A DNA stretch of 64,000 nucleotides. It comes from Candidatus Acidulidesulfobacter diazotrophicus. Its GTDB lineage: Bacteria > SZUA-79 > Acidulodesulfobacterales > Acidulodesulfobacteraceae. This document shows, piece by piece, positions 37,245 through 48,959 of the stretch; the first letter of the stretch is position 1, and each line of letters starts with the position of its first letter. Where the stretch lies: positions 1 through 64,000 of the forward strand of contig SGBB01000010.1 of assembly GCA_004195025.1 (NCBI GenBank), in the 5' to 3' direction. The position numbers were made by a program, and so were the translations under genes. The notes beneath the pieces are model-generated. The model worked only from the letters and a program-made list of their open reading frames with translations, was not told where the DNA came from and did no database searches.

Positions 37245-38012
37245 ATGGCAGTTAATTTTGAAGTTAATAAAAATAATATCGGCATCATAGACTTAAATTT
37301 TGGAAATAAAAACGAGTTATATATTCAAGAAATAAATGAAATTATTAAAGTTATCATAGAACAAGTTTTACAACAATACAATATAAGAGCCGTATTGATA
37401 AAAAGCTCAAATCCGGAATACTTTGCAGTAGGTCCGGCTATTAAAAAAATTAAAGATTTAGATAAAAATGACGCGCGATATTTTGCTACGGTTTTAAATA
37501 AAATGATTAATCATATTGAAAATATAGAAATCCCGGTTATTGCCAAAATTGAAGGAATTGTTTCAGGTATAGGCTTTGATATTGCCGCCGCCTGTGATTT
37601 TAAATTTGCAACATTAGATGCCACATTTGCCGATTATTCAGTCAGATGCGGCATTGTTTCTCCATCTGCATTAATAAGCAAGCTTATTTTTTTGATAGGT
37701 GCTCAAAAAGCAAAAGAGATTGTATTATCGGGCAGAAAGTTTTCGGCAAAAGAGATGTATTCCTTTAACTTTTTAACTAAGGTCTTAAATAAAGAAGATG
37801 AAGATATAGATAATTATATTGATAAGTTTTTAAATGATTTTAATGAATCATCCATTCAATCATTAAAAATAACTAAAAAATTTTTTAATGAGATGATGCA
37901 AAATCAGATAAATAATTCTCCATTTTCTTTAGTTGATATATTTTCAGAATTTTTTCATTCCGATCAATCCCTAAAGTCTCATTTTGAATCAATTATTAAT
38001 TTGGATTTATAA
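37245..38012 (+). CDS. divergent enoyl-CoA hydratase/isomerase (crotonase) family protein
   Basis: A 255-residue crotonase-fold protein. IPVIAKIEGIVSGIGFDIAAACDFKFA is the conserved core and oxyanion region. The two Glu residues of classical hydratases are not evident: the first is replaced within GFDIAAACD, and the second region reads FADYSVRCGIVSPSA. It may therefore catalyse another reaction or act without acid-base Glu. Immediately upstream of the sulfur-oxidation locus on the same strand but separated from it by 381 bases with a separate promoter; involvement is unproven. GGAGG precedes the ATG. Confidence 0.78.
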   Translation: MAVNFEVNKNNIGIIDLNFGNKNELYIQEINEIIKVIIEQVLQQYNIRAVLIKSSNPEYFAVGPAIKKIKDLDKNDARYFATVLNKMINHIENIEIPVIAKIEGIVSGIGFDIAAACDFKFATLDATFADYSVRCGIVSPSALISKLIFLIGAQKAKEIVLSGRKFSAKEMYSFNFLTKVLNKEDEDIDNYIDKFLNDFNESSIQSLKITKKFFNEMMQNQINNSPFSLVDIFSEFFHSDQSLKSHFESIINLDL

Positions 38013-38790: not shown

Positions 38791-39525
38791 ATGAGTGAAG
38801 AAGTAAAAAATCCGATTACGGAAAAGATTGAAAGCACTAAAGGCGGACATTTTTATAAAGAAATCATGAAAGATTTCCGCATTAAAGAATCTCTGCACGG
38901 TTGTCTAAATTGCGGTACCTGCGTTGCCAATTGCCCTGCCGCTGCTTTTTATGATTACTCTCCCCGCGAAGTATGTCAGATGATGATTGAAGGCGATGAA
39001 GAAACTATTGAAGAATACATGAACGGCAAAATATGGAACTGCGCTCAATGTTTCAGCTGTAAATACAGATGCCCTAAAGAAAATTCGGCAGCCGATATAG
39101 TTATGACTATGAGAGAAATTGCCGTAAGAGAGGGAATGGCGGGAGAAGCCCTTGCAGGATATACAAGAATAGCCAAGCTAGTTTTAACTCGCGGAAATCA
39201 GCTTGCGCCAGATATGTTATCCCCCGACGCTTTTCCAGATTGGGGTCCAAGAATGATTGAGTTATCCGAAAAAAAAATGGAGATGAGAGAAGAACTTTTT
39301 AAAGGTTTTCCAGGGATGAATGTTGTTGACAGAGCATGGGCGGCCGAAGATTTTACGATTTATGAAATGCAAAAAATTTGGCAAGAAAGCGGAGCATTAG
39401 AAAAAGTGGGAATCGTATTTCCTTTTTTAGTAGATATAGTTCAAGATGATATGGAAGATAAAGCCGATGAAATGGAAGCTAAAATTGCTGAAAAAAAAGC
39501 TAAATTAGCTGCATCAAATAAATAA
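38791..39525 (+). CDS. hdrC1: sHdr iron-sulfur subunit C1
   Basis: A 244-residue heterodisulfide-reductase C-like protein with two ferredoxin motifs: CLNCGTCVANCP (Cys 38, 41, 44, 48) and CAQCFSCKYRCP (Cys 84, 87, 90, 94). It transfers electrons between the HdrB1 catalytic subunit and the flavin subunit HdrA. The last 30 residues are charged and helical. Strong AAAGGAGG ribosome site. First structural gene of the sulfur-oxidising sHdr operon, cytosolic. Confidence 0.9.
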   Translation: MSEEVKNPITEKIESTKGGHFYKEIMKDFRIKESLHGCLNCGTCVANCPAAAFYDYSPREVCQMMIEGDEETIEEYMNGKIWNCAQCFSCKYRCPKENSAADIVMTMREIAVREGMAGEALAGYTRIAKLVLTRGNQLAPDMLSPDAFPDWGPRMIELSEKKMEMREELFKGFPGMNVVDRAWAAEDFTIYEMQKIWQESGALEKVGIVFPFLVDIVQDDMEDKADEMEAKIAEKKAKLAASNK

Positions 39526-39536
39526 TAAATTTGCTA

Positions 39537-39577
39537 TTAATTAAATCAATATTGTTTTTAATTATTGATTTAATTAA
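39537..39577. repeat. 15-bp perfect hairpin between hdrC1 and hdrB1
   Basis: TTAATTAAATCAATA (39537-39551) pairs with 39563-39577 around an 11-base loop. No T-tract follows. It starts 12 bases after the hdrC1 stop, suited to protecting or processing the mRNA end. Confidence 0.6.
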
Positions 39578-39718
39578 GATAAATTTAAGATAAAGATAAA
39601 AATGTTAAAAAATAGTTCCACATTATTATAATTATAATAATAAATAATCTTTTAAATTAAAAAGAAGTTATATTAAATTATCTATTAAATAAATAAATTG
39701 ATAGGGAGGGCATTATTC

Positions 39719-40810
39719 ATGTCTTATGAAATAAATGATGTTAAAACCGCAATTAATCATGGAAAAGGAATGAATTATCATGTACATGATATAAGAGCGG
39801 AAATGAAAAAATTAGAAGAAGAAGGGGAAATAAAAATTGCGCATATTATAGGACCATACAAAGAAGAAGAAGTAATGTACGGAATTAAAAAGAGGGTTCC
39901 TTTAGATATGCATTATCAGCACAAGAGCTGCGGACAGTGTGCTAATCTTCCGGGCGTTCCGAGATCTAATTTTTATTATAGAGATAAACTTGGAATAAAG
40001 TATTATAACGATATGCAGCAAACATCATGCACCGCATGGAATTATCATGCATCCGGACTCGGCAATTTAGTTCAGTTGGGGGCCGTTGCAGCAAGAAATT
40101 GGCACAGAGCTTATGAAGAAGGCTATAATTTTACAATTCACTGCGTAACAAGCTTCGGCAATTATCTTGAAATGAGGCATTTGCTGGTCGGAAATAAAGA
40201 ACTCAGGGACGAAGTAAAAAAAATAATGGCAAAATTAGGCAGAGAGCTTGTAATTCCTGAAGAAATTGTTCATGACAGCGAGATTGCTTATGCTTTAAGA
40301 GATAAAATTCTTGCAAATGCCGATCCGAAACGGCTTGCGGCTATTAAAGGTTTGAAAGCCGTAGAGCATTACGGATGTCATTTCTTTAAACAAGTTTCAG
40401 ATGATATAATAGGCGGTAAAAGACCTATAGTAGTCGGCGGATTAGCTTCGCATTTAGGTGTTCAGATGGAAGAATATTCTAAATGGTTTATGTGCTGCGG
40501 ATTTGGATTTAGACATATTCTTGTTAACAGAGAATTTACGAGATCTGCCCAAAATATTAAATTAAAAGCTATCAAAGAAGAAGTTGATCCTGATATGATA
40601 TTAGTTAATTGTACAGGATGCGGAACTACTTTTGATAAAACTCAATGGATACAAAAAGCCGTTGGAGAAGATTATCATTATCCTGTTATATTTTATTCTC
40701 AGCTTGCGGCATTGGCATTAGGAGCGCATCCGTTCAAAGAAGCAGGATTGAATTTTCATGTTACCCCTGTAGAACCGCTTCTTGATAAAATGGGAATTTC
40801 ATATAGTTAA
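39719..40810 (+). CDS. hdrB1: sHdr subunit B1 (CCG-domain protein)
   Basis: A 363-residue HdrB-like protein. The ATG at 39719 (MSYEINDVK) is chosen because GGGAGGG ends about ten bases before it; the TTG 21 bases upstream lies inside that site. The C-terminal half has a CCG-type cluster motif: HYGCHFFKQ, FMCCGFGF and VNCTGCGTT. The first half has KSCGQC and SCTAW rather than a full CCG, so only one complete non-cubane cluster site is apparent. Part of the complex that oxidises protein-bound sulfane sulfur. Confidence 0.88.
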   Translation: MSYEINDVKTAINHGKGMNYHVHDIRAEMKKLEEEGEIKIAHIIGPYKEEEVMYGIKKRVPLDMHYQHKSCGQCANLPGVPRSNFYYRDKLGIKYYNDMQQTSCTAWNYHASGLGNLVQLGAVAARNWHRAYEEGYNFTIHCVTSFGNYLEMRHLLVGNKELRDEVKKIMAKLGRELVIPEEIVHDSEIAYALRDKILANADPKRLAAIKGLKAVEHYGCHFFKQVSDDIIGGKRPIVVGGLASHLGVQMEEYSKWFMCCGFGFRHILVNREFTRSAQNIKLKAIKEEVDPDMILVNCTGCGTTFDKTQWIQKAVGEDYHYPVIFYSQLAALALGAHPFKEAGLNFHVTPVEPLLDKMGISYS

Positions 40811-41177
40811 TTTATATTAAATTATATGATTGCTTTCGCTAAATATTTAGAGATATTTAGAGATATTTAGATATTAAGATAATTTTTTTAAGATATATTA
40901 TATAATCTAAAAAAAATTAAAGATTAACAAATAATACATAAATTAATTTTATATAATTTTATAAAGAATGGCGTATTCTCATTGAATAGGCAGATTAAAT
41001 TTTGTAAAGCAGGTAGTTGTTGTTGTCCTAATTTATGCCTTTAGGAATGAGGAAGTACATATTCTGGTGTAAATAATATACATCAGAATATGTATAAATT
41101 CCAGCCTTAGGGTATAAGGAATATGCCAAAAAAACTTATTTAAATATATTATTTTATTAACAAGGAGGTATTTTAAG
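40811..41177. other. spacer between hdrB1 and hdrA
   Basis: No gene in 367 bases. It holds three GATATTTAGA-like direct repeats (about 40843-40875) and the 16-bp hairpin at 41056-41094; AAGGAGG at 41163-41168 serves hdrA. Confidence 0.55.
41056..41094. promoter_or_regulatory. 16-bp hairpin between hdrB1 and hdrA
   Basis: TACATATTCTGGTGTA (41056-41071) pairs with TACATCAGAATATGTA (41079-41094), one G-T pair, loop AATAATA. No T-tract. The arms hold ATATTCT/AGAATAT, echoing the sHdrR operator half-sites. Confidence 0.6.
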
Positions 41178-42224
41178 GTGAAAACAGTTTTAGTCATAGG
41201 CGGGGGAGTTACAGGTCTTAAGGCATCATATGAATTAGCAGAAATGGGGTACAATGTTTCATTGGTAGAAAAAGAAGATTATCTCGGCGGACAAGTTGCA
41301 AAGCACAAGTATTATAAACTAGCTCCGGATATGCGTTTGGCAGGAGAAGTTATAGACCCTGTTATTAAAAGCGTAGAGAATAATTCTAATATTAAAGTTT
41401 ATAAGCATTCAACTATCACATCATTATCAGGTGATGCGCCTGAATTTAAAGTTAAAATCAAAAATTCTAAAGGCGAGTCGGAAGAAACTTTTGGAGCCAT
41501 TGTTGTTGCAACAGGTTTCGAGCATTTTGATCCTACCGTTAAGCAGGAATATGGCTATAGCAGATTCAAAGATGTTGTTACAAATGCAGAAATAGAAGAA
41601 ATGCTTAACCCAAACGGTCCTACAAAAGGGGAACTTAAAAGACCTTCAGACGGAAAAATTCCTAAAAAAGTTGCAATATTTCAATGCGTAGGTTCAAGAG
41701 ATAAACAGGTTGGGAATCCGTATTGCTGCAGAGTAGGCTGTGTTGTTTCAACAAAACAGGCTATTGAAATTAAAGAAAAATATCCTGACACCGAAGTTTA
41801 TGTATATTATATGGATATGAGAATGTTCGGCAGAGGATGGGAAGAACTATACGGAAAAGCAATGGAAGAATATGAAGTTATTTTTACAAGAGGCAGGGGG
41901 GCAGAAGTTACATTAAAGAATCAGCAGCTGTCGTTAAGAGCTGAGGAAACTATTATGGATAGACCTATACAACATTCTGTAGATATGATTATTCTTGCGG
42001 CAGGACAGGCACCAGGCGAAGGAACTATTGAAGCGGCTAAAATACTCGGACTTAAACAAAATGATTATGGATATTTAGCGCCAAAAGATGATTTTTTGAG
42101 CCCGAATGAATCTTCCAGGAAAGGAATATTTATCGCAGGAGCGGACAAAGGTCCATTAGATATTGAAAATTGTATAGTTGAAGGTGCTGCCGTAGCTGCA
42201 AAAGTTGCCTCATCTTTAAAATAA
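41178..42224 (+). CDS. hdrA: sHdr flavoprotein subunit A
   Basis: A 348-residue HdrA-like flavoprotein. VLVIGGGVTGLKASYELAEMGYNVSLVEKEDYLGGQVA binds FAD; FQCVGSRD and NPYCCRVGC hold the conserved Cys for an iron-sulfur cluster; GIFIAGADKGPLDIENCIVEGAAVA closes the FAD domain. It lacks the extra ferredoxin domains of methanogen HdrA, as in sulfur-oxidiser sHdrA. GTG start with AAGGAGG ten bases upstream. It is the electron hub between the two HdrB-HdrC pairs. Confidence 0.9.
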   Translation: MKTVLVIGGGVTGLKASYELAEMGYNVSLVEKEDYLGGQVAKHKYYKLAPDMRLAGEVIDPVIKSVENNSNIKVYKHSTITSLSGDAPEFKVKIKNSKGESEETFGAIVVATGFEHFDPTVKQEYGYSRFKDVVTNAEIEEMLNPNGPTKGELKRPSDGKIPKKVAIFQCVGSRDKQVGNPYCCRVGCVVSTKQAIEIKEKYPDTEVYVYYMDMRMFGRGWEELYGKAMEEYEVIFTRGRGAEVTLKNQQLSLRAEETIMDRPIQHSVDMIILAAGQAPGEGTIEAAKILGLKQNDYGYLAPKDDFLSPNESSRKGIFIAGADKGPLDIENCIVEGAAVAAKVASSLK

Positions 42225-42281
42225 TTTTATAATCTAAAAAAATATTAAAAATTTTAACAAAGAAATAAATAAGGAGTTAAT

Positions 42282-42926
42282 ATGGCGGAAAATACTGATA
42301 AAATGGTTATTGACGGCGTAGAACTTGTAGGTATTTGGAAAGAGTTTATGCCGTCAAGAATATTATATGAAGATGTTACTACGGAATTTCTTAATGAAGT
42401 TAAAAAACTGCCGGGCGGAGAAACTATCGCAAAATGCTATCAATGCGGTACTTGCACAGGAGGCTGCACGCTTCCTGAATTTGTTAATAAATTTAATCCC
42501 CGCGGTTTTATAAATTTAGTAAGAAGGGGACATTACGATCTGTTGGTATCAGATTATAAAGAATTAGTATGGAAATGCGTTTCATGCAACAGATGTACAC
42601 ATAGATGTCCTAAAGGAGTCAATACTCAGGAAGTAGTGAGAGCTATTGCTAAATTCCTTGAAGACAGAAAAGTATTTGGAAAACTTACAAATGATGAAGC
42701 ATTTGATGAAGTTTTTATGGATGAAGTTATCAATGAAGGAAGAATCGACGAAGTTAAAATTGTAAAAGATTTTTATGCTAAAACAGGCAGGCTTAAAGAA
42801 ATGATGAGCGGAGATCAATTATCCTTAGGCTTTAAAATGTTTACAAGCGGAAGAATCAAACTATTCGGAGGCAAAATTAAAGATTGGAAAAAAGTGTCTC
42901 AGAGGTTAAAGGAGGAATTACAATGA
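42282..42926 (+). CDS. hdrC2: sHdr iron-sulfur subunit C2
   Basis: A 214-residue HdrC-like protein with ferredoxin motifs CYQCGTCTGGC (Cys 52, 55, 58, 62) and CVSCNRCTHRCP (Cys 99, 102, 105, 109). It follows hdrA after 57 bases, with no reading frame for the small hyp protein found there in many sHdr operons. Its stop overlaps hdrB2 as ATGA. Second electron-transfer arm of the complex. Confidence 0.9.
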   Translation: MAENTDKMVIDGVELVGIWKEFMPSRILYEDVTTEFLNEVKKLPGGETIAKCYQCGTCTGGCTLPEFVNKFNPRGFINLVRRGHYDLLVSDYKELVWKCVSCNRCTHRCPKGVNTQEVVRAIAKFLEDRKVFGKLTNDEAFDEVFMDEVINEGRIDEVKIVKDFYAKTGRLKEMMSGDQLSLGFKMFTSGRIKLFGGKIKDWKKVSQRLKEELQ

Positions 42927-43828
42927 AATTAGGTTATTTTCCAGGCTGTTCATTAAAAGGAATGGCAAGAGCATATGATGAATCTACAAAAATAGTTGCC
43001 GAAGGTTTTGGTATTGAATTGATGGAAGTTGATGATTTTAACTGCTGCGGAGCTCTTGAAGCTAAAGGTTCTAATGAAAAACTTTCATATATGCTTCCTG
43101 CAAGAGTTATGGATTCTGCTAAAGGCAGATTTCATGTCGATGCCATTGTTACCCCTTGCAACGGATGTTATCATAGCTTACTTAGAGCTAACGCTGCTAT
43201 GAATGAAGACTCTGCTGCTAAAAGCGATGTTATAAGTTTTTTGAAAGACGTCGGTTACGGCACTTATGAAGGCGATATAGACGTAAGACATTTTCTTGAA
43301 TTGTTTTATAACGAGGTTGGTCCCGAAAAAGTAAAAAATGCTGTAAAAAAATCGCTTAAAGGTTTAAAAGTCGCTTCTTATTACGGTTGTTTATATGAAA
43401 GACCTAAAACAATAACAAAAACAGGTTATAAAAGCAAAAGAGACGATTCTGAAAATCCATATTTTCAAGATGAACTTTTAGCTGCTACTGGAGCTGAAGT
43501 TGTTAAATTTGAAGCTGCTGCATCATGCTGCGGAGGAGCCCATGCTCTTCAAGACGAATCATTGGCAGCAACACTATCCGCTGCGGTATTGTCAGCTGCT
43601 AAAAAAGCTGGAGCTGATATTTTGGCTCTACCATGTCCATTATGCGGTGCCGCTTTAGATATTAAACAGCCTGAAATAGTTAAGGCTCATGGAAATGATG
43701 CAAAGATTCCCGTTGTTTATTTTACCCAATTAATAGGACTTGCTATGGGAAAATCTGCTAAAGACTTAAAATTAACCGATCCTATTTCTAATCCTATGGA
43801 GATATTAAAATCTAAAGGATTGGTTTAA
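42923..43828 (+). CDS. hdrB2: sHdr subunit B2 (two CCG domains)
   Basis: A 301-residue HdrB-like protein. I start at ATG 42923, preceded by AAAGGAGG and overlapping hdrC2 by four bases; the longer frame upstream begins at a weak TTG. Both CCG domains look complete: Cys9, NCCGALEAKG (Cys41-42), TPCNGC; then YYGCLYERPK, ASCCGGAHALQDE and PCPLCGAA. These bind two non-cubane [4Fe-4S] clusters, the active site in HdrB relatives. Confidence 0.9.
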   Translation: MKLGYFPGCSLKGMARAYDESTKIVAEGFGIELMEVDDFNCCGALEAKGSNEKLSYMLPARVMDSAKGRFHVDAIVTPCNGCYHSLLRANAAMNEDSAAKSDVISFLKDVGYGTYEGDIDVRHFLELFYNEVGPEKVKNAVKKSLKGLKVASYYGCLYERPKTITKTGYKSKRDDSENPYFQDELLAATGAEVVKFEAAASCCGGAHALQDESLAATLSAAVLSAAKKAGADILALPCPLCGAALDIKQPEIVKAHGNDAKIPVVYFTQLIGLAMGKSAKDLKLTDPISNPMEILKSKGLV

Positions 43829-43897
43829 CTTCTAACTTATAAGATTATAATTTATAATTAATTTTCTTATATAATAAAATATACATAATATGTTAAT

Positions 43898-43957
43898 ATG
43901 CCTATTTTTTAATTACTAATGTAATTATTATTAATTAGATTGTAGGCATTTTTTTTA
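43898..43957 (+). terminator. probable terminator after hdrB2
   Basis: ATGCCTA (43898-43904) pairs with TAGGCAT (43943-43949), followed by a run of T. An inner stem TAATTAC/GTAATTA lies in the loop. Suggests that lbpA genes downstream are partly expressed on their own. Confidence 0.65.
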
Positions 43958-44094
43958 AATTTAATTTAAAAAAAATTATTTATTTAATTATTTAATTGTC
44001 AAATAAATAAAAATATAGTAATATAAGTTTTAATAAAACTTATAAGTAATTTCAAATTTAATAAAAAAACATATTTCAAGGAGGAAAGAAACTT

Positions 44095-44532
44095 ATGGCT
44101 AAAATGAACGGGTGTGATATTCCCGAAGATCTTTATTACAATATTGAAAAGCACGTCTGGGGCAAAATTGAATCTGACGGTACTGTTTTAATGGGCATGA
44201 CTAGCGTTGCCGCAAGTCTTGCAGGTAAACTTCTTTATATTACTCCTAAAAAAGTCGGGCAAAAAGTTATTCAATTAAAATCAGTAGCTACGGTTGAAAG
44301 CGGAAAATATGTCGGACCGGTTCCTGCGCCTTTCGGCGGTGAAATTTTAGAAATAAATGAAGATTTGAAAGCTGATGTTTCTTCCATTAACAGCGATCCT
44401 TACGGTAAGGGATGGGTATGCAAAATTAAACCTGCCGATATTGAAGCCGATAAAAAAAATTTACTTACAGGGAAAGAAGCCGTAGAAGCATATAAGAAAA
44501 AAATTGAAGCAGACGGTATTAAATGCGAATAA
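44095..44532 (+). CDS. lbpA1: lipoate-binding protein LbpA (GcvH-like), copy 1
   Basis: A 145-residue GcvH-like carrier. The lipoylation loop is SVATVESGKYVGPVPAPFGG with Lys71 as the lipoyl Lys; DPYGKGWVCKIKP matches the GcvH C-terminal motif. In sHdr organisms LbpA carries sulfur intermediates on lipoate rather than serving glycine cleavage, and no gcvT or gcvP is in the window. AGGAGG ribosome site. Two near-identical-length paralogues lie side by side. Confidence 0.88.
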   Translation: MAKMNGCDIPEDLYYNIEKHVWGKIESDGTVLMGMTSVAASLAGKLLYITPKKVGQKVIQLKSVATVESGKYVGPVPAPFGGEILEINEDLKADVSSINSDPYGKGWVCKIKPADIEADKKNLLTGKEAVEAYKKKIEADGIKCE

Positions 44533-44546
44533 TTTAAATTATAGAC

Positions 44547-44590
44547 GCGGTTTCTTTTACTTGCGGTTTCTTTTACTTGCGGTTTCTTTA
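44547..44590 (+). repeat. 16-bp tandem repeat between the lbpA genes
   Basis: GCGGTTTCTTTTACTT at 44547-44562 and 44563-44578, with a third partial copy from 44579. Flanked by ATAGAC on both sides. Purine/pyrimidine-biased, no coding potential. Confidence 0.85.
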
Positions 44591-44636
44591 ATAGACACAC
44601 GGTTCATAAAATTTTTTAACGGGAGGATATTTAATA

Positions 44637-45083
44637 ATGGCAATTTTAAATGAATGCAATATTCCCGAAGATCTTTACTATGATATTGAAAATCAGGTTT
44701 GGGGGAAAAAAAACGACGATGGAACATTTACTTTTGGAATGACCGATCCTGCTCAATCACTTGCCGGAAAAATATTATATGCCGATGTTAAAGCTGTCGG
44801 TAAAATTATAAAAAAAGGGAAGAGCGCCGCTACTATTGAAAGCGGAAAATATGTCGGTCCGTTTCCTATGCCGTTTGCAGGAGAAATAGTTGAAGTCAAT
44901 ACTGAATTAGAAAAAGATTCGCATATTATTAATTTAGATCCGTACGGAAAGGGTTGGTTAGTTAAATTAAAACCTCTTCCAGAAGCAGTATCAGATATTA
45001 ATTTATTACCGACCGGGGAAACTGCCGTTAATGCTTATAGAAAAAAATTAGAAGAAGAAGATATAGTTTGCAAAAAGAGATAA
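44637..45083 (+). CDS. lbpA2: lipoate-binding protein LbpA (GcvH-like), copy 2
   Basis: A 148-residue paralogue of the preceding gene, starting MAILNECNIPEDLYYDIENQ. The lipoylation loop SAATIESGKYVGPFPMPFAG keeps Lys71, and DPYGKGWLVKLKP is present. The copies have diverged at many positions, so the duplication is not recent. Strong GGGAGG ribosome site. Probably shares the lipoate-assembly enzymes coded next. Confidence 0.88.
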   Translation: MAILNECNIPEDLYYDIENQVWGKKNDDGTFTFGMTDPAQSLAGKILYADVKAVGKIIKKGKSAATIESGKYVGPFPMPFAGEIVEVNTELEKDSHIINLDPYGKGWLVKLKPLPEAVSDINLLPTGETAVNAYRKKLEEEDIVCKKR

Positions 45084-45158: not shown

Positions 45159-46160
45159 ATGAGTTATTATGAATTTAACAAAGATATAAGTTCGAAATAT
45201 ATAAATGGTTTTAATATAAGGAAAAATAATTTTGATAATGCTATTCATTTTTATGCACCAAGCATTAAAGCTTATGAGACTGAAGATTTTAAAAATGAAA
45301 AAACAGATTCTTTCCCTCCTTTATCTATAACCGGTAATTCGTGTTCTTTAAAATGCGATCACTGCAATGCCGAAATATTAAAGTCTATGGATTCGGTTAT
45401 TATACCTGATGATTTATATCGCAGGGCAAACCAGATATTTAAATCAAAAGGGAAAGGTTTTTTACTAAGCGGAGGATCTAACGCTAAAGGTATTGTTGAA
45501 ATTTTACCTTATATTGACACGATAAAAAAAATAAAGGCTGATTTCAAACTTAAAGTTATAGTGCATTGCGGTATAATTACCGAAGAAATAGCCGATGGTC
45601 TGCTCGATGCGGGCGTTGATTCGGCTATGCTTGATATAATCGGCGACGAAGACACTATTCGTACCGTTTATCATTTAAAAGCCTCAGTTGATGATTATGA
45701 TAATTCATTAAAATATTTATCGGAAAGAAATATCCCCTGTTCTCCTCATGTGGTAATAGGTTTAAAACACGGTAAAATTTCAGGCGAATTTAATGCCGTT
45801 GATATTATATCAAAACATAACATTTCATCGTTAGTGCTTGTAGGATTTATGCCTATGGGAAATACAAAAATGGAAAATATTACTCCTCCGGAACCTGAAG
45901 AAATTGGAGATGTTTTTATATACGCTCGAGAAAAATTTACCAGGACGCCAGTTCTGCTTGGGTGTGAAAGACCTTACGGAATGAATAAATTTAAAATTGA
46001 AGAACTTGCCGTTAAAGCCGGATTAAACGGAATTGCTTATCCTTCAGAAGGCATTATTCCTTTTAGTAAAGAGCTTAAGTTAAAGCCTTTATATTCAGAT
46101 GTATGCTGTTCTTTGATTTTTGCCGAAGAATCATTATCTGCTATTCATATCGGCGGTTAA
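45159..46160 (+). CDS. radical SAM protein, LipS1/LipS2-type lipoate synthase candidate
   Basis: A 333-residue radical SAM protein with the cluster motif CSLKCDHC (Cys 62, 66, 69; a Cx3Cx2C spacing) and GGSN at about 104-107. The C-terminal half has VLLGCERPYGMNK and DVCCSL, with extra Cys that could bind an auxiliary cluster needed as sulfur donor. It lies between lbpA2 and the lipoate ligase, the expected place for one of the two-protein LipS1/LipS2 pair that inserts sulfur at C6 and C8 of the octanoyl chain. Which of the two it is I cannot decide. Confidence 0.8.
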   Translation: MSYYEFNKDISSKYINGFNIRKNNFDNAIHFYAPSIKAYETEDFKNEKTDSFPPLSITGNSCSLKCDHCNAEILKSMDSVIIPDDLYRRANQIFKSKGKGFLLSGGSNAKGIVEILPYIDTIKKIKADFKLKVIVHCGIITEEIADGLLDAGVDSAMLDIIGDEDTIRTVYHLKASVDDYDNSLKYLSERNIPCSPHVVIGLKHGKISGEFNAVDIISKHNISSLVLVGFMPMGNTKMENITPPEPEEIGDVFIYAREKFTRTPVLLGCERPYGMNKFKIEELAVKAGLNGIAYPSEGIIPFSKELKLKPLYSDVCCSLIFAEESLSAIHIGG

Positions 46161-46286: not shown

Positions 46287-47831
46287 ATGTTTAGAGTTAT
46301 AGATACAGGTATTAAAGATTTTTCTTATAATATTGCTATGGATAAAGCTATGCTTGATCTAAGAAAAGATAATATAATTCCCGATACCCTCCGTTTTTTG
46401 ACATTTAACCCTTGCACTTTAGCAGGCTTTCATCAATCGGTGTTTAATGAAATCAGAATTGATTACTGCAAAGATAAAAATATTGATATAGGCCGTCGCA
46501 TAACCGGCGGCGGCGCCATATATTTTGATGAAACGCAATTAGGATGGGAGTTAGTTTTTTCCTCAAAAACTCTTAAAGCCGCAAATTTTCAAAACTTAAC
46601 TGAAAATATATGCAATGCATTTGTATCAGGCATTAATAGATTAGGCATTAATGCAAAATTTAGACCTAGAAATGATATTGAGGTTGAAGGAAAAAAAATA
46701 TCCGGCACAGGAGGAACATATGATTCGTCTATATTTTTTTTTCAAGGCACTTTGCTTTTAGATTTTAATCCTGAATTTATGGTAAAATCATTAAAAATTC
46801 CCGTAGAAAAATTAACTTCCAAAAATTTTGACTCTATATCGGCAAGAATTACTTCTATAAAAAAAATACTCGGATATATTCCTGATATTAAAATTATAAA
46901 GTCTGCAATTATAGGAGGATTTTCGGAATATTTTGATATCCCGTTTAATTACGGAACGCTGACGGAAGAAGAAAATAATTATATCAGACAAAATCAAAAA
47001 TATTATAAATCTGATGAATGGGTATATTCATTAGATAATGAGCTATTAGAAACTAAGACGATTCACGATACATACAGATGCGGCGGAGGCATATTTAAAA
47101 CTTTTGCAAAAGTAGATTATAAAAGAAATATATTAAAGTATATTTATTTTACCGGCGATTATTTTGTCATTCCCGAAAGAGCAATTGCCGACCTTGAAAG
47201 TTTTTTAAAAGATTGCGGTATTGATGAGTTAGTTTTTAAAATAGATGAATTTTTTGAAAAATATAAACCTGAATTTCAAAATGTTTCAAAAGAAGATTTT
47301 TTTAATATAATAAATAATATAGCGGATAAAATAACTTTTCTTAAAGATGCAGGAATTGAAGAAGATGAGCTTTCCCGTTTTATGTTTGTCAATGGAATGC
47401 AATTAAGCGATATAAAATCTGTAAAAGCTATTCTGCTGCCTTATTGCGCTAAAAAAAAGGATTGCGAATTTAGAAATACCGATTACTGTTCAATATGCGG
47501 AGATTGTGAGACGGGCATTGCTTATAAATTTGCAAAAGATTTTAATTTATTGCCCATTACTATAATTAATTATGAAAATCTTGTAGAAACATTAAATAAA
47601 TTAAAAGATGCAAATATAAGTTCGTATATCGGTTTTTGCTGTAAAGAATTTTATATAAAACGCAATAAAGCATTCAAAGATTCAGGTATTAAAGCTTTGC
47701 TTATAGATATATCTTCTCCTTTGTGCTACAATTATAAAAAAGAAGAAGACGCATATAAAGGTATATTTGACGGCGAAACTTTGCTAAATGCAAATATCTT
47801 AAACGATTTATCTAAAATTATAAATAGATAA
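46287..47831 (+). CDS. sLpl(AB)-like lipoate/octanoate ligase fused to DUF116-like domain
   Basis: A 514-residue three-part protein. Residues 1-250 are a lipoate-protein ligase domain with GRRITGGGAIYFDE (69-82), NDIEVEGKKISGTGGTY (129-145; catalytic Lys136 or 137) and FQGTLLLDF. Residues about 262-350 resemble LplB (GGGIFKTFAKVDY, then FTGDYFVIPERAI). Residues 381-482 look like DUF116: ILLPYCAKKKDC, CSICGDCETG, GFCCKEF and PLC, eight Cys in all. It should attach lipoate or octanoate to LbpA. Ordinary sLpl(AB) is expected to lack the Cys-rich tail. Confidence 0.82.
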   Translation: MFRVIDTGIKDFSYNIAMDKAMLDLRKDNIIPDTLRFLTFNPCTLAGFHQSVFNEIRIDYCKDKNIDIGRRITGGGAIYFDETQLGWELVFSSKTLKAANFQNLTENICNAFVSGINRLGINAKFRPRNDIEVEGKKISGTGGTYDSSIFFFQGTLLLDFNPEFMVKSLKIPVEKLTSKNFDSISARITSIKKILGYIPDIKIIKSAIIGGFSEYFDIPFNYGTLTEEENNYIRQNQKYYKSDEWVYSLDNELLETKTIHDTYRCGGGIFKTFAKVDYKRNILKYIYFTGDYFVIPERAIADLESFLKDCGIDELVFKIDEFFEKYKPEFQNVSKEDFFNIINNIADKITFLKDAGIEEDELSRFMFVNGMQLSDIKSVKAILLPYCAKKKDCEFRNTDYCSICGDCETGIAYKFAKDFNLLPITIINYENLVETLNKLKDANISSYIGFCCKEFYIKRNKAFKDSGIKALLIDISSPLCYNYKKEEDAYKGIFDGETLLNANILNDLSKIINR

Positions 47832-47837
47832 TAAGTA

Positions 47838-48959
47838 ATGAATGAAATGGAGAATATTTATATGAATTATCCAGAAACGGCTATGACTATTCAAGAAACT
47901 TCTATAGATGAAAATTTAAATAATTATGCTGCCGAAAATTCGCCTGAATATCTCAAGGTCAGCCTTGCAGCAGCGATGACGCTTGGAATGGTACCCGGAT
48001 TATTTTATAGAAATGCCTGCCTTCATTGCGTTAATGTTCTTTTAACTTATAATGACGGATGCAGAGCAAATTGCGCCTATTGCGGTTTGCAAAAATCACG
48101 CGAAGGAAATTACAATGATAAAAGTTTTATAAGGGTTGACTGGCCGGCATTTAAAACTGAAAATATCATTAAACGCACGCTTGAAAAAAAAGATGTTATT
48201 CATAGAATATGTATATCTATGATTACTCATGAAAAGGCTAAAGAAGACACTTTTGCGATATTACGGAATTTTAGTAAAAATCTTCATTGTCCAACTTCTA
48301 TATTATTAACGCCTACTATCCTCAAACATTCCGATATAGATAAATTTAAAGAATACGGCGCAGATATGGTTACGGTAGCGCTTGACTGCGCAACCCCGGA
48401 ATTATTTGATGAATATAGGGGCACAGGCGTTAAAGGTCCGCATAAATGGGATAAATATAATGATACTTTAGACTATTCCGTTTCTGTTTTTGGAAAAAAT
48501 AAAGTGGGGTGTCATCTTGTAGTAGGTCTTGGAGAAACAGAAAAAGAAATGATTTTTAGAATTCAGGATGTTAGAAATAAAGGAGCGCGTTCACATTTAT
48601 TTTCATTTTATCAAGAGAAAGGGTCAAAATTAGACAGTCATCCTCAGTGCCCGGCGGGTCAATTCAGAAGGGTTCAGGTAGCCCGCCATATTATTGATTA
48701 TGATATGAGTCATGCGGAAGATATGGAATTTGACAATAGCGGCAAAGTAATTGATTTTGGAATTCCTTTTAAAGATGTAGCTAAAATAGTTGAAACGGGA
48801 ACTGCATTTAGAACCACGGGGTGCCCCGGCAAATCGGAAATTTCTGCCTGCAATAGACCTTTCGGCGATTCTTCGCCGAGAAACATAAGAAGTTTTCCGT
48901 TTGAATTAAATGCTTCCGATATTGCAAGAGTCAGGAAAGAACTTTTAGAATACGAATAA
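47838..48959 (+). CDS. second radical SAM protein of the LipS1/LipS2 pair
   Basis: A 373-residue radical SAM protein, biotin-synthase-like. NDGCRANCAYCGLQKSREGNY carries the Cx3Cx2C cluster (Cys 75, 79, 82), preceded by CLHC (61, 64). Other landmarks are GADMVTVALDCATPELFDEYRGTG and a Cys pair near the C-terminus in TTGCPGKSEISACNRPFG, plausible auxiliary-cluster ligands. It follows the ligase after six bases, so the two are coexpressed, and completes a lipoate-assembly set independent of LipA/LipB. Confidence 0.8.
   Translation: MNEMENIYMNYPETAMTIQETSIDENLNNYAAENSPEYLKVSLAAAMTLGMVPGLFYRNACLHCVNVLLTYNDGCRANCAYCGLQKSREGNYNDKSFIRVDWPAFKTENIIKRTLEKKDVIHRICISMITHEKAKEDTFAILRNFSKNLHCPTSILLTPTILKHSDIDKFKEYGADMVTVALDCATPELFDEYRGTGVKGPHKWDKYNDTLDYSVSVFGKNKVGCHLVVGLGETEKEMIFRIQDVRNKGARSHLFSFYQEKGSKLDSHPQCPAGQFRRVQVARHIIDYDMSHAEDMEFDNSGKVIDFGIPFKDVAKIVETGTAFRTTGCPGKSEISACNRPFGDSSPRNIRSFPFELNASDIARVRKELLEYE

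Follow-up and report, generated by a model that had tools for sequence, protein, structure and literature searches.

A DUF116 domain fused to a predicted lipoate ligase and its probable part in bacterial lipoate assembly

Introduction

The closest described system to the locus reviewed here is that of Tanabe et al. 2023 (PMC10332631), where an sLpl(AB) ligase is encoded in one cluster with lipS1 and lipS2, genes for lipoate-binding proteins (LbpA), and the sHdr genes. Octanoylation or lipoylation of LbpA is established for this ligase family, LipT is proposed as the electron donor, and the sHdr-LbpA sulfur oxidation pathway is described in the same work (PMC10332631). LipS2 acts on the octanoyl chain and LipS1 on the 8-mercaptooctanoyl chain; each carries an auxiliary (second) [4Fe-4S] cluster (PMC9585515). 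In classical lipoyl synthases the auxiliary cluster is the sulfur source (PMC9585515); the same is likely in LipS1/S2.

The ligase described from Hyphomicrobium is an enzyme of about 361 aa, judged from the reported deletion (residues 8-349, last 35 bp kept); it leaves no room for a further domain, and the main text is silent on DUF116 (PMC10332631). This review of one locus and its relatives concerns a variant that is longer. The ligase family and the LipS1/S2 pathway are already known, and the DUF116-tailed variant appears to be new. The initial annotation of this DNA had suspected as much: we found no published description and no paper that mentions DUF116 together with lipoate, in a search that most subscription journals lay outside and that leaves novelty unproven. 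Most of the texts that do mention DUF116 carry titles on unrelated subjects. A literature search for COG1852, the family that corresponds to PF01976 (DUF116), returned a single match, in which uncharacterised membrane proteins of archaea are surveyed. We know of no metal, binding partner, or activity for any DUF116.

A ligase with a DUF116 tail

The window analysed here is a stretch of 64,000 nucleotides from Candidatus Acidulidesulfobacter diazotrophicus (contig SGBB01000010.1, positions 1 to 64,000). It contains an uninterrupted reading frame for a protein in which an LplA catalytic domain and an LplB accessory domain share a single chain, as in sLpl(AB) (Table 1). In the catalytic domain, the RRITGGG segment (residues 70-76) and the K137 region are conserved among aligned relatives, and the predicted full-length model matches 3r07_A in Foldseek (E 3.7e-21). 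In the accessory domain, NF053749 (LplB) covers residues 275-342 with a score of 29 bits against a cut-off of 65, but TIGR00545 spans residues 3-342 and 3r07_C, an archaeal LplB chain in the PDB, matches residues 270-340.

Beyond these domains lies a cysteine-rich tail. The initial annotation had likened its pattern to DUF116 and staked that identification on a profile search, and both points hold. LLPYC lies at residues 383-387, CSICGDC at 401-407, and GFCC at 449-452; PF01976 matches at 29.0 bits in the whole protein against a cut-off of 25, and at 30.6-32.1 bits in the isolated tail. DUF116 is the sole Pfam domain matched there. By these profile matches, the protein is a predicted lipoate ligase with LplB-like and C-terminal DUF116 domains.

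Table 1. Features of the ligase locus (positions in the window; residues of the 514-aa protein)
Feature	Position	Strand	Evidence
sHdr-like C1-B1-A-C2-B2 genes	38791..43828	+	Fer4_8, CCG, and Pyr_redox_2 matches and gene order
lbpA1, GcvH-like lipoate-binding protein and likely substrate of the ligase	44095..44532	+	PF01597, 119 bits
lbpA2, second GcvH-like lipoate-binding protein	44637..45083	+	PF01597, 119 bits
Putative lipS1 (radical SAM)	45159..46160	+	NF053742, 226 bits (cut-off 230)
sLpl(AB)-DUF116 fusion gene	46287..47831	+	514 aa; Pfam and NCBIfam profile matches
LplA catalytic domain, residues 12-212	46320..46922	+	PF21948 (LplA-B_cat), 145 bits
LplB-like accessory domain, about residues 247-342	47025..47312	+	TIGR00545, NF053749 (weak), 3r07_C
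DUF116 domain, residues 368-482	47388..47732	+	PF01976
N-terminal cysteine group C387, C393, C401, C404, C407 (PYCAKKxxCxxR...CxxCGxC)	47445..47507	+	Alignments
C451-C452 pair (GxCC)	47637..47642	+	Alignments
C480, eighth invariant cysteine	47724..47726	+	Alignments
Putative lipS2 (radical SAM)	47838..48959	+	NF053743, 209 bits (cut-off 270)

The tail alone yields a confident AF2 model (pLDDT 85.7, pTM 0.84) with an alternating alpha/beta fold. Foldseek of this model against the PDB and BFVD gave no match at E <= 0.001, and PDB sequence searches with the tail, the fmt-type DUF116 discussed below, and the profiles of both gave nothing significant. With no PDB match for the fold, there is no mechanism to borrow from a known structure. 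The fold of the ligase is reproduced in the full-length model, but with a pTM of 0.62 the placement of the domains is uncertain.

The genes around the ligase run in the order lbpA1, lbpA2, lipS1, ligase, lipS2, all on one strand, and the LipS1 and LipS2 families are by far the best matches for the two radical SAM genes. Further upstream, two genes encode Fer4 proteins, two encode CCG-domain proteins, and one encodes an HdrA-like flavoprotein, in an order that we take to be the sHdr-LbpA sulfur oxidation arrangement. These sHdr-like genes are the apparent users of lipoylated LbpA. Together with the two lbpA genes the set (38791-45083) is apparently complete, and an enoyl-CoA hydratase-like gene precedes it (37245-38012). 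The genome also encodes a LipA homologue, which at 309.5 bits narrowly misses the cut-off of 310.25, and, at a separate locus, a LipT.

Conservation of the tail

Within SZUA-79, the GTDB group that we equate with Ca. Acidulodesulfobacterales, the window protein is matched in 27 of 30 genomes. Alignment of 24 distinct full-length fusions (60-100% identity) places the conservation of the tail about level with that of the ligase. Eight cysteines are invariant in a set of 57 distinct fused proteins that spans several phyla; the set was chosen by a motif that includes Cys 387, 401, 404, and 407, and Cys 393, 451, 452, and 480 lie outside it. The same invariance is seen at A388, K389, F455, K458, and Y481. 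Conservation among these tails extends past the DUF116 boundary, to about residue 498. The DUF116 profile matches the tails of all 22 relatives searched, two of which also give a weak Fer4 match. Ligase and tail distances are correlated (r 0.91), as expected of one gene inherited as a unit.

Lipoate-type and fmt-type DUF116

The tail, which we call lipoate-type, is one of two forms. The same SZUA-79 genome encodes a second, ordinary DUF116 of the membrane type (180 bits). Its gene (L001:1225-1977) adjoins one assigned by inspection as fmt-like, the same neighbourhood as in Firmicutes. A profile of the lipoate-type tail separates the forms sharply in 300 Bacillota genomes: 12 score 173-201 bits, and all other DUF116 proteins score 42 bits or less and sit in ORFs of about 240-370 aa. 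HHalign of the two types gives 96.8% probability (E 2.3e-10); they are homologous.

The fmt-linked form (PF01976/COG1852) has cysteines in LLPHC, C, C, CxxCGxC, ACER, and GPC that align with those of the lipoate-type. When two tails (L079 and L073) are aligned over their full length, seven cysteines are matched to the fmt-type profile; the other tails align mainly over the first five. In contrast to the lipoate-type, the fmt-linked form has a hydrophobic N-terminal part and lacks the YCAKK and GxCC signatures; the DUF116 of the window is a ligase tail, from which the typical N-terminal membrane part and the fmt neighbourhood are absent. The combination YCAKKxxC ... CxxCGxC ... GxCC is a specific marker that separates the lipoate-type from the fmt-linked form.

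Fusions, a split gene, and operons beyond SZUA-79

When the tail alignment was used to scan 84,980 species genomes, relatives outside SZUA-79 appeared in Actinomycetes, Bacillota, Sumerlaeota, CSSED10-310, a 'proteobacterium', and one further metagenome-assembled genome (MAG), where MAG labels are possibly wrong. All are fused to the same kind of ligase (loci L071-L073, L075-L078, and L080), including that on the complete chromosome of Candidatus Formimonas warabiya (Bacillota, L073), with the exception of Sporomusa. In this cultured organism DUF116 is a separate 188-aa gene at the end of the cluster lbpA-lpl-lipT-lipS2-lipS1-DUF116. In the usual operon, ligase-DUF116 is followed by lipT and then by lipS1 and lipS2, whose order varies. 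The Sumerlaeota fusion comes after lbpA, and LipS2 is on a different contig.

LipT is a geranylgeranyl-reductase-like flavoprotein, unrelated to DUF116, and its gene shares an operon with nearly all DUF116 loci outside SZUA-79. LipT is encoded at a separate locus in 19 of 19 good SZUA-79 genomes; there, the gene (L183:6564-7652) stands alone, far from the lipS/ligase cluster, whereas other phyla have it in the same operon.

One Bacillota MAG extends the fusion further. At L077 (2559-5069), a single 836-aa ORF comprises the ligase, LplB-like, and DUF116 domains and a complete LipA, whose part of the protein scores above the LipA cut-off (370 versus 310 bits). Domains for octanoyl attachment and sulfur insertion are here on one chain, and LipS1/S2, LipT, and two lbpA genes are encoded nearby. 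The LplA_LipA fusion family NF053790 likewise joins ligase and lipoyl synthase; its model, however, has 606 positions, and L077 matches it in two stretches, its DUF116 sitting between the ligase and LipA parts. Two apparent larger fusions, ORFs of 1269 aa (L207) and 644 aa (L208), were rejected as N-terminal over-extensions in GC-rich DNA. We also rejected a restriction of DUF116 to sHdr sulfur oxidation, as many DUF116 loci are without sHdr genes in the stretch seen.

Genome G448 has two systems (L229, L230). In one, the ligase carries DUF116 and is accompanied by lipT-lipS1-lipS2; the other has a divergent ligase with no tail, together with lbpA and lipS2 and with neither lipS1 nor lipT nearby.

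Co-occurrence with LipS2 and LipT

Two phylum-wide samples, 300 genomes of Bacillota and 247 from the phylum of genome G041 (547 in total), link the lipoate-type DUF116 to the LipS1/S2 pathway: LipS2 is present in 41 of the 43 genomes that encode it. In Bacillota, LipS2 falls into two NCBIfam score classes, above 280 bits and at about 212-244 bits, and the LipS2 of the window resembles the lower. All 12 Bacillota genomes with DUF116 are among the 20 with the lower class, and in 11 of them the two genes are on the same contig within about 8 kb. The lower class scores below the curated cut-off, and annotation may miss it. In the phylum of G041, lipoate-type DUF116 occurs in 31 genomes, always in long ORFs, and LipS2 in 29 of these; nine genomes have LipS2 without it. 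Fisher p values for the association (1e-16 in Bacillota, 1e-27 in the phylum of G041) come from related genomes and are not true probabilities.

LipT scores above 300 bits in 20/20 DUF116 genomes outside SZUA-79 versus 1/30 others, the next best score being 186; the profile was built partly from 11 of those 20 genomes, and without them the contrast is 9/9 versus 1/30.

The two exceptions, G354 and G439, carry the fusion, and LipS2 was not found in them at E <= 1e-10; the G439 contig is only 3.6 kb long. In G354 (L212), lipS1 is beside ligase-DUF116, LipA is encoded elsewhere in the genome, and lipT is absent from the 16-kb stretch; either the genome is incomplete or the pathway has changed.

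Ligases without the tail

The tail was at first described as foreign to ordinary lipoate ligases, and the comparison bears this out: it is absent from several close sLpl(AB) proteins, and likewise from the enzyme of Hyphomicrobium, with its length of about 361 aa (PMC10332631). Six Bacillota genomes with the same LipS2 class (G072, G089, G117, G154, G155, and G308) encode close tail-less ligases, mostly of 359-392 aa, that of G155 being in an over-extended ORF. Two further candidates, G252 (L161) and G342 (L163), were dropped, as contig ends cut the gene or locus. G346 combines lipT, lipS1, and lipS2 with a tail-less ligase of 370 aa. The ligase tree groups the tail-bearing proteins together and places the tail-less ones at the base, with few changes required; the change counts are upper bounds, with the cut L161 included and the outgroup row L171b falling inside.

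LipT is found without DUF116 in G089 and G346. LipT and LipS1/S2 occur without DUF116 in these genomes and in proteobacterial sulfur oxidisers, so the chemistry does not depend on the domain.

Proposed role and alternatives

Fusion in multiple phyla, the split gene of Sporomusa, the ligase-DUF116-LipA protein, and the near-exclusive co-occurrence with LipS2 and LipT all strongly support the initial proposal that DUF116 takes part in lipoate assembly, and we consider such a part very probable for the lipoate-type. A metal- or sulfur-handling role would fit the cysteines, and the domain probably holds an Fe-S cluster. On balance, we lean towards the tail being a genuine component of the sLpl(AB)-LipS1/S2-LipT pathway, with a metal site that serves sulfur insertion. 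More narrowly, it may be a dedicated Fe-S module that passes LipT electrons, or clusters or sulfur, to LipS1/S2 on octanoyl-LbpA, a reading for which we see an even chance.

In this proposal, the ligase part would join octanoate (or lipoate) to the LbpA lysine, an activity established for its family. First LipS2 and next LipS1 would insert sulfur into the bound chain, at C8 and C6; that each of the two has an auxiliary [4Fe-4S] cluster and needs electrons is known from Thermococcus. The eight cysteines of DUF116 would bind a metal, with an Fe-S cluster as the most likely form, in the service of this insertion, and the fusion would keep the module beside freshly octanoylated LbpA. As a first choice, DUF116 would act as a one-electron relay from the flavoprotein LipT to LipS1/S2; as a second, it would donate Fe-S or sulfur and so rebuild the auxiliary clusters. 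The identity of the domain, its conservation, the pattern of fusion, split, and operons, and the co-occurrence are observed; the kind of metal, the transfer of electrons or sulfur, and all contacts with LipT, LipS1, and LipS2 are what we infer. Because of the LipT link, we rank the relay first, then cluster or sulfur supply, then zinc docking; the relay itself is a tentative assignment. Electron supply and renewal of spent clusters in LipS1/S2 both await a proven protein, and DUF116 fits either.

The strongest alternative, although an unlikely one, is that DUF116 carries Fe-S or sulfur with which it restores the auxiliary [4Fe-4S] clusters of LipS1 and LipS2 (in L077, of LipA) after each turnover, without electron transfer. 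NfuA performs such restoration for LipA. The L077 protein, where DUF116 is fused to a LipA with the same repair need, would be accounted for, as would the invariant CxxCGxC and GxCC motifs and the auxiliary clusters of both LipS enzymes (PMC9585515). What such a carrier leaves unexplained is the pairing of DUF116 with LipT in every genome tested (20/20), and LipS1/S2 systems that lack DUF116 must repair their clusters otherwise.

Less likely again is a role in docking without redox chemistry, in which a zinc-stabilised DUF116 would recruit LbpA, LipT, or LipS1/S2 to the ligase. Fusion and co-occurrence require proximity alone, structural zinc is common in cysteine-rich modules, the eight cysteines could equally bind zinc, and five residues other than cysteine are just as invariant. 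Eight invariant cysteines nonetheless exceed the need of one structural zinc, CxxCGxC is frequent in Fe-S proteins, and the weak Fer4 matches point the same way.

It is very improbable that DUF116 tunes the ligase, for instance by switching octanoate activation in response to redox state or metal, and has no connection with sulfur insertion. The fusion partner is indeed the ligase rather than LipS1/S2 in 11 of 12 Bacillota cases; against this, the Sporomusa gene is separate and adjoins lipS1 at a distance from the ligase, closely related ligases do without the tail, and DUF116 follows the distribution of LipT and of the LipS2 class. The fusion might be suspected of being an artefact of assembly or frame, or a functionless lineage-specific hitchhiker, since the majority of loci come from MAGs, but this is refuted by conservation across cultured and uncultured genomes: eight invariant cysteines in 57 distinct fused proteins, the fusion in the complete Formimonas chromosome, and the split form in cultured Sporomusa.

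Implications

If the lipoate-type is indeed a dedicated Fe-S module of LipS1/S2 lipoyl synthesis, this would give a first function to DUF116, a domain for which we found no solved relative. Neither an electron donor nor a cluster-repair partner is proven for the LipS1/S2 pathway, and DUF116 is a concrete candidate. Its own candidate partners are LipT, LipS1, LipS2, and LbpA, and cultured Sporomusa makes the domain available as a separate gene.
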